From: Sialis fuliginosa
Taxonomy: Eukaryota; Arthropoda; Insecta; Megaloptera; Sialidae
DNA length: 64,000 nt
NCBI GenBank assembly: GCA_961205875.1
Contig: OY540809.1
Location: forward strand, 28,966,267 to 29,030,266
Direction: 5' to 3'
This document shows, one piece after another, positions 51,341-60,790 of this stretch. The notes under the pieces were generated by a model. It searched no databases. It saw nothing but the letters and a program-made list of their open reading frames with translations, and had not been told where the DNA came from. How positions within the stretch are numbered: the stretch's first letter is position 1; each line of letters opens with the position of its first letter. The position numbers were made by a program, and so were the translations under genes.

Positions 51341-52345
51341 GAGTTCCAAAACCTGTTCGTTCCATTTTAAAAAAAAAATTCGGGCAAGACGAGTGTATGC
51401 CATAAGGGTTCCGAAGTTCGTTCTACGGGGAATGTTTGGAGTTATGCATTTTTAAGTAAAAATATAAAAAATGTAAAGTTCTACTAAATGAGATCTATAT
51501 TTTGACACCCCACTTGCCTAAATATCAAAATAAAAAATTCTATGACGCCTCTCCCTATAATTCCAAAATTTAAAATTATATTGTTGACTTTAGTATTTGT
51601 CGTTGGTAGTCCCACCAAAGCCTCGTTACCAAATTTTTTTCAGATTTTTTGAGCCGGTAGTTACAGAGTTAGAGGGGAGGGGGCAAAATAAAATACTGAT
51701 TTAGCCCTCTACAGGCGCTATTTTTGAGTTAGAAAAAAAATATGGTCAAATTCTATTAATTGAGATGTACATTTTGACATGCCACACGTCTTGGCATACA
51801 ATTTTTTTTTGGATTTGTTTTAAAGCCCCCTACAGGCACCATTTTTTTTTTAGAAAAAAAAAATAGAAAAAGGGTCAAATTCCGCTTGTTTGGTTATACA
51901 TTTTAACGAGCCGCATGCCTTGGTATAAAAAATATTTTTTTAACCTAGCTTTAGCCAAATAGCTCGTAAACTATATAAGCTAGAAACGTGAAATTTGTAC
52001 TGAATATGTAAAATGACACCCTCTAGTAAAATATGTACAAATTTATTGAATAAATAATTTTTCAAGGGGGGCAATAAGGAGCTAAAGCTAGGTAAAAAAA
52101 ATTTTTTTTATACCAAGGCATGTGGCACGTTAAAATGTATAACCAAACAAGCGGAATTTGACTCTTTTTCTATTTTTTTTCTAAATCAAAAATGGTGACT
52201 ATAGGGGGCTTTAAAGCAAATCCAAAAAAAAAAAACAAAAAAAATGTATACCAAGACGTGTGGCATGTCAAAATGTACATCTCAATTAGTAGAATTTGAC
52301 CATGTTTTTTATTTTTTTTTAACTTAAAAACCTATAACAAGGCCG
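51341..52345. repeat. Repeat J, large imperfect inverted repeat
   Basis: The arms 51727-51955 and 52086-52335 are inverse complements at most positions (TCTATTAATTGAGATGTACA, TGGCATACATTTT versus AATGTATACCA, TTCCGCTTGTTTGGTTATAC). The centre (51956-52085) carries AGCTCGTAAACTATATAAGC. The centre plus right arm recurs at 49690-49930. The upstream part (51341-51726) has ATAAGGGTTCCGAAG, tying it to the Q group. A poly-G run follows at 52346-52357. Confidence 0.8.
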
Positions 52346-59443: not shown

Positions 59444-59685
59444 ATGATTCTACAACTCTTTATAACATTACAAAAATTGGCACAATTTGACTATGATAAA
59501 TATACATAGAAAATTTGATTTTTAGGTTGTGATTTACGTATGATAGGTATTTCATTACTCATTATATAATTAATTGTCAAATTTAAAATCCACTTTTCAA
59601 TATGATTTTTCTCGCATTTTATTCTGTATAACTGTATGGTATAATAATTTCAAAAAAGTGACTCCCACAACAGAAGTTGATGATT
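59444..59685. other. AT-rich unannotated stretch
   Basis: Nothing is recognised. Confidence 0.4.
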
Positions 59686-60790
59686 TTTAGTGTTCCGTAT
59701 CGAAATCAGAAAAATTAACACTTCTGGAATCAACATTTTTTCCGTCTGTCTGACTGTCTGTCACAGCTAGGGTTTGCAATTCCGCAGACTTTTTTTTCTC
59801 GCGGGAAATCTGCCAATCCCGCGGGATCCTGCAGTTTTTCCAAAATTTGTATTATTCATGCTTAAAGTTACTATTATTTAGTTAACATGACAATTACCTA
59901 ATGAAAAATAGTTCCATAGCGGTAACATATGATACATAAACGTAACACGTACCGTATAGACCGATGTAAAATCCATAAAATACACCTGTAAATAGGAGGT
60001 TGTCTAATATGTTAGGTACAAGGACAAGATGCTTCTAACTTCTAATTACTTTTGTCTTTTTGTTCGATTATCCATTTCAATTTTTTTAACTCCTTGATTG
60101 CGTATAAATTAGCCCGTAGGTCGCCTTTTACGCCGCACCGGTATATACGGTATGTCACGTAAATCTAAACCACTAAATATCATTATTTACAGTTGTATTT
60201 TAGGGACAATACTGTTAAAAAATATCGTGTAGATCGTATAGAAAAAGATAGTTTTGAGAAAACACGAATTTTGTGTATTAAACTTTGTGGTTAGCTTTCA
60301 TTTAATCTGCCATTCTTCTTCTAAATTTTTGTATTTTGAATTTTTATGTTTTTTTTTTTTGTAATCTGCTTCTTTTGCCGCCTGAGTCGCGTGAATCCTG
60401 GCATGTTTTAATCGGTTGCGCAGTCACTTTTTCGAACTTTTTTATTTATTTTTTATTTTGGAGGTATGTAACCACTTAACTAATCGTGAACAAGAGATAT
60501 ATGTAAGTATATTTGCCTTTTATTCCACTAGATTTATATTCAATCATCTCAGCCTTCATTTTTTTTCAAAATTGTTACCTTTTTTATCCATATTTACACT
60601 TTACAAGTATTCAAAACGCACGCGACCTACAAATTTAATGTTAAAAAAATTCCGTGCGGATCCCGCACTTTCAGTTATTGCAAACCCTAGTCACAGCCTT
60701 CTAGCTGCTAAACCGTTTGATCTAGAAAACTGAGATTTGGCATACAGTAAATAGTGGACCTGAGTTATAAAAGTAAATATAGGTAGGTAC
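59686..60790 (+). repeat. Q-type repeat split by a hAT insertion
   Basis: Left part GATTTTTAGTGTTCCGTATC ... TTCCGTCTGTCTGACTGTCT (59686-59767). Right part GCCTTCTAGCTGCTAAACCG-TTTGATCTAGAAAACTGAGA (60690-60790). Joining the parts minus one 8-bp copy restores the usual order of such repeats: GTTCCGT, CTGTCTGTC, then CTAAACCGTTTGATCTAGAAA. Confidence 0.75.
59768..60689. mobile_element. Non-autonomous hAT element with perfect 8-bp target duplication
   Basis: The ends are TAGGGTTTGCAAT and its exact inverse ATTGCAAACCCTA. The flanks GTCACAGC (59760-59767) and GTCACAGC (60690-60697) are identical. An 8-bp duplication and TAGGG (YARNG-type) ends are hAT hallmarks. Subterminal GGATCC palindromes occur on both sides (GCGGGATCCTGC at 59821 and GTGCGGATCCCGCAC at 60654). 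No transposase-like translation is found in its 922 bp. Confidence 0.88.

Follow-up and report, generated by a model that had tools for sequence, protein, structure and literature searches.

The window analysed here, a stretch of 64 000 nucleotides of the Sialis fuliginosa genome, contains a 922 bp insertion bounded by short inverted repeats and flanked by a direct duplication. It raises the questions of what kind of element this is, whether it belongs to a family, how old it is and by what transposase it was moved.

Structure of the element

The insertion occupies positions 59768–60689 (+ strand, the orientation being arbitrary) and was assigned as a non-autonomous hAT-type element from its termini, its duplication and its aligned relatives. 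The left terminal inverted repeat (TIR), TAGGGTTTGCAAT, spans 13 bp at 59768–59780 (+ strand), and the right TIR at 60677–60689 (− strand) is the reverse complement of TAGGGTTTGCAAT. The two copies of the target-site duplication GTCACAGC, at 59760–59767 on the left and 60690–60697 on the right, match exactly. The original prediction, made from the letters of the window, had described perfect 13 bp TIRs and an exact 8 bp duplication bounding 922 bp, and this description holds at 59760–60697.

The window was scanned for perfect 13 bp inverted repeats lying 100–5000 bp apart with exact 8 bp matches in their flanks. Two pairs were obtained, namely the element at 59768–60689 and a foldback at 51773–52272; in 60 simulated windows (first-order Markov) no such pair arose at 13 bp, and a repeat length of 11 bp yielded a single one. 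The flanks of the 500 bp foldback, ATGTACAT, are a palindrome and merely prolong the inverted repeat. The foldback region (51765–52280) has long inverted arms, the outer 21 bp of which, including ATGTACAT, are perfect.

Within the left end of the element, a remnant subterminal array of GCGGGA/TCCCGC hexamers (59800–59829, + strand; three hexamer matches) includes GGATCC at 59824–59829. The remnant right subterminal motif (60656–60667, + strand; one hexamer match) includes GGATCC at 60658–60663. Alignment to the consensus places the junction of a private 63 bp deletion at 60675–60676; 13 bp of the right TIR are left and most of the right GCGGGATCCCGC array is lost.

The family in the host genome

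The host genome searched comprises 392 Mb in 20 contigs. Exact matches to TAGGGTTTGCAAT number 376 on each strand, compared with 4 and 2 for the reversed control, and the 18 bp family terminus TAGGGTTTGCAATCCCGC, with up to three mismatches allowed, was found 538 and 545 times, compared with 19 and 23 for the control. Among 100 listed termini, all on contig C1, 43 pairs face each other and 14 ends stand alone. The 53 copies that were read consist of 40 of the 43 pairs (window copy included), the 12 best other DNA matches and one by-catch; the sample is biased towards intact ends, as 40 copies were reached via the exact terminus and 12 as the best matches to the window copy. The typical family terminus is TAGGGTTTGCAATCCCGC, of 18–19 bp (the TIR of copy L011 is perfect over 19 bp). 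The 13 bp terminus, perfect in the window copy, is a remnant of this longer one. Both lengths (13 bp in the window copy and 19 bp in L011) lie within the 10–25 bp given for hAT TIRs in PMC3942097.

The original prediction was to be given up if no other copies existed or if their duplications differed in length. An exact 8 bp duplication flanks 51 of the 53 copies, with 50 distinct sequences; of the remaining two, L046 has no duplication and L102 matches at 7 of 8 positions. Among the 51 duplications, 40 have T as their second base and 38 have A as their seventh; the two occur together in 30, and at least one of them occurs in 48, so that the Ac-group target consensus nTnnnnAn appears as a bias and not as a rule. 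The target consensus of the Buster group of hAT elements, nnnTAnnn, occurs in none of the 51. The window duplication GTCACAGC fits RTYRYRAY at 7 of 8 positions; the mean of the copies is 6.5.

Hexamers were counted in 52 copies, with the nested 4.2 kb copy L009 excluded. GCGGGA/TCCCGC occurs 3–11 times per copy in the left 130 bp, 0–14 times at the right end and 0–2 times in the interior, and the counts are 4–11 on the left in 50 of the 52 copies and 4–14 on the right in 46. The paired GGATCC palindromes had been proposed as a possible family signature; both sites are present, but they are pieces of the GCGGGATCCCGC-type array that is typical of the family. The 16 other copies of ∼1 kb are 92–99% identical among themselves and 91–93% identical to the window copy outside gaps. 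In L011, the one ordinary copy examined for coding capacity, the longest stop-to-stop frame has 96 codons. With copies in the hundreds and conserved ends, the family is non-autonomous and MITE-like.

The hundreds of termini, the 8 bp duplications and the Ac-type target bias support the predicted hAT-type insertion from a multicopy family. The family is real, and it is an ordinary non-autonomous hAT-type family; since no transposase of the family was found among the loci read, the hAT assignment is based on the duplication length, the target bias and the form of the ends. TAGGGTTTGCAATCCCGC has no exact matches in viral contigs and three in prokaryote genome contigs, which is about the number estimated by chance in 257 billion bases. 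In the open-access literature, the letters of the terminus led to no transposon paper, and the 12-letter complement of the terminus matched only an unrelated aptamer paper.

The older repeat at the insertion site

The element interrupts an older GTTCCGT/GTCTGTC dispersed repeat, the halves of which lie at 59674–59767 on the left and 60698–60778 on the right (both + strand). Removal of the element and of one GTCACAGC yields an empty site of 205 bases, which was found at 38 other places among the best 40 of 767 candidates, with 72–89% identity over parts of the 205 bases. All ten alignments that were read run across the rejoined junction, and small indels occur in several; three of the ten preserve GTCACAGC exactly. 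These alignments confirm the prediction that removal of the insertion rejoins an older repeat. Words resembling GTCTGTCTGTC give 37 overlapping matches in the window with up to one mismatch, compared with 0.14 expected. This host repeat may be akin to the MITE-like (GTCY)n repeats of Lepidoptera (Coates et al., 2011, cited in PMC9659126), the likeness by description being a GTCTGTC-type array with a conserved flank.

Search for an autonomous member

A long copy with its own hAT transposase had been suggested as a check on the original prediction. No TAGGGTTTGCAAT-ended copy with its own transposase was found among the loci read, which were few, with 150 of 613 dimerization-domain candidates scored, and a parent may lie among the rest. 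The 4.2 kb candidate proved to be a nest. This copy, L009 (4203 bp), has exact TAGGGTTTGCAATCCCGC ends, the exact duplication CTCCCAAG and an intact frame of 646 amino acids, the product of which contains a hAT dimerization domain (E 1.2e-6); a Spin-doc-like finger was also matched, with a score under the curated threshold. L009 could on these features be the autonomous member and its protein the transposase of the family. The frame, however, sits inside a CAGTG-ended hAT of 3258 bp (L009 1232–4489; G000:C1:22563031-22566288) with ends CAGTGATGGCGAACCT and CAGTGGTGGCGAACCT and its own duplication GTCTATAC, the outer parts of L009 align to an ordinary ∼1 kb copy broken at this site, and relatives of the inner element are present elsewhere in the genome without TAGGG ends. 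L009 was rejected as the parent, a role that we regard as extremely improbable. At C14 5234240–5236177, a relative of the CAGTG element with 99% identity has an intact frame, and many 3′-end pieces also occur.

Further candidates were set aside. A BED-finger hAT in L115, 1.2 kb beyond a TAGGG copy, is a separate neighbour; the TAGGG copy is complete after 1198 bp and flanked by a duplication of its own, and no TAGGGTTTGCAAT ends belonging to the hAT were seen in the part that was read. It lies in two frames at L115 2909–5532 (G000:C2; zf-BED 3.5e-11, dimerization domain 9.7e-9), and at seven places its zf-BED match is found again, with an identical score and a frame of 328 codons. The candidate in L112 is a TAGAGATG-ended hAT instead; this element of 3606 bp (L112 738–4343; G000:C3) has TAGAGATG-type ends, the exact duplication CTGCTCAC and a 602-codon frame at the dimerization-domain match. 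Paired TAGGGTTTGCAAT ends were absent from the stretches read of L098, L099, L112, L113 and L114. For protein P0001, no relative was confirmed in viral contigs and no solved structure was matched at E values of up to 1. Contig C14 (16.8 Mb) contains 18 of the 150 listed dimerization-domain matches and 10 of the 30 zf-BED matches, which is above its share of the 392 Mb genome.

Age and mobility of the window copy

Of 893 sites aligned with the consensus of the 16 other ∼1 kb copies, 61 (6.8%) differ in the window copy. The 16 copies themselves lie 0.6–2.2% from their own consensus in 14 cases, with L046 at 4.6% and L047 at 6.2%. Thirty-nine of the 61 differences are private, and the other 22 are common to at least one of the 16 copies, chiefly L046 and L047. 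These common differences place the window copy in an older stratum of the family and indicate that part of its divergence predates its insertion. A second comparison used 30 copies of 850–1060 bp, the window copy included. Here, private changes are most numerous in the window copy, at 28 of 891 sites (3.1%, with 2.2% in the copy ranked second), and its terminal branch, on which the midpoint root lies, is the longest (0.060, followed by 0.047). The window copy leads the 30 copies solely in these two measures, as its distance from the 30-copy consensus (6.17%) is about that of L047 (6.18%). The private share depends on the sample: with 16 copies for comparison it is 39 of 61 differences, and with 29 copies it is 28 changes over 891 sites. 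At the Heliconius mutation rate reported in PMC4271535 (2.9e-9 per site and generation), a private divergence of 3–4% would correspond, as an order of magnitude, to ten million generations, a figure that gives the scale only as the rate may not be that of the host.

The window copy is an old, decayed member of the family. The original prediction had called the insertion 'fairly recent' on account of its intact duplication, a view contradicted by the 6.8% distance from the consensus and by the largest number of private changes among the 30 copies. These same values make it very unlikely that the window copy is a recent arrival from a family still active today. The exact duplication and the perfect 13 bp ends would fit such an event, as would several relatives less than 1% from the consensus, which indicate a more recent spread of part of the family. 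Exact duplications are, however, also retained by other diverged copies, L047 (6.2%) and L037 (5.4%), so that an exact duplication does little to show that an insertion is young.

A related question is whether the window copy had already lost its right subterminal array when it moved. Its termini and duplication are intact around the truncated end, and copy L043 (G000:C1:27830749-27832400) similarly has no right-hand GCGGGA/TCCCGC hexamers yet has exact termini and duplication; the window copy is therefore not alone in lacking the right array, the loss of which might leave an element mobile. Against this, the junction of the 63 bp deletion occurs once in the host genome with up to two mismatches allowed, so this form did not multiply detectably, and hAT elements investigated in other systems need 100–200 bp of each end (PMC10368747). 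Movement in the truncated form is unlikely. Also unlikely is a hAT lineage that moves with near-minimal ends on one side (a 13 bp TIR with the right array gone, in the window copy and perhaps in L043) and has amplified a second, nested hAT-like MITE, its transposase being borrowed from another hAT or gone from the genome.

Affiliation and proposed mechanism

Duplications of 8 bp do not by themselves decide the superfamily, as P and Merlin elements also produce them. With the family known without a transposase, it could on this count belong to one of these superfamilies and not to hAT. Its TAGGG start, however, is that of the short TIR of Ac. The T2/A7 bias of its 8 bp duplications also agrees with the nTnnnnAn target printed for Hermes in PMC10368747, and membership of P or Merlin appears quite improbable. 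Very probably, the whole is best explained as a non-autonomous hAT-type DNA transposon with an Ac-group target preference that was mobilized in trans and has aged in place.

Under this preferred explanation, a hAT transposase supplied in trans would most likely have recognized both TAGGGTTTGCAATCCCGC at the termini and the subterminal array of GCGGGATCCCGC motifs, and the element would have been excised and reinserted with an 8 bp stagger at RTYRYRAY-like sites. The window copy would have landed in the GTCACAGC stretch of the older GTCTGTC-bearing repeat, and repair would have duplicated GTCACAGC. Point changes would have gathered after the insertion, and the 63 bp deletion of the right array probably also belongs to this period, an order that we infer; with both, the window copy is probably immobile now. 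The GCGGGA/TCCCGC hexamers are likely to be transposase-binding sites, a putative role modelled on that of the Hermes subterminal repeats, to which the BED domain binds (PMC10368747).

The Ac group of hAT elements (Hermes, Ac and hobo) has arrays of short subterminal repeats, as does the family described here, but differs from it in that this family is known without a transposase. The Hermes repeats described in PMC10368747 are AAGT/AAGC, whereas those found here are GCGGGATCCCGC. The BuT2 MITEs of Drosophila willistoni (PMC3942097) are likewise non-coding hAT derivatives of 0.5–1 kb with conserved ends and 8 bp duplications. They number 24 copies, whereas each strand of the host genome has at least 376 exact termini, and unlike them the present family has no parent found and carries a second element nested in 21 of the 53 copies. 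The hAT MITEs of Helicoverpa (PMC9033116, compared by description) share the 8 bp duplications and inverted termini but are shorter, at 56–550 bp, and scarce, with 20 and 15 sequences.

The family is biologically ordinary. For annotation, its exact ends, target consensus and subterminal motif are provided and its size classes are explained. L009 also illustrates a trap, in that a hAT nested in a non-coding hAT mimics an autonomous parent as long as the inner ends go unnoticed, because outer ends, an outer duplication and an intact hAT transposase are all present in the nest.

Nested copies

An element of ∼620 bp with TAGGGTGTTTTTTT ends is nested at one shared place in 21 of the 53 TAGGG copies; in L011 it occupies element positions 386–1004 in the window orientation. 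Its right flank is exactly GTATATAC in 12 of the 21 copies, GTAAATAC in two and a one-off variant in two, and was not found by a simple search in five. The uninterrupted copy L029 has GTATATAC once at the place of the nested insert. The simplest reading is that one insertion was followed by joint amplification inside the TAGGG element. Copy L015, 1750 bp long, has an insert that differs from the ∼620 bp nested element.
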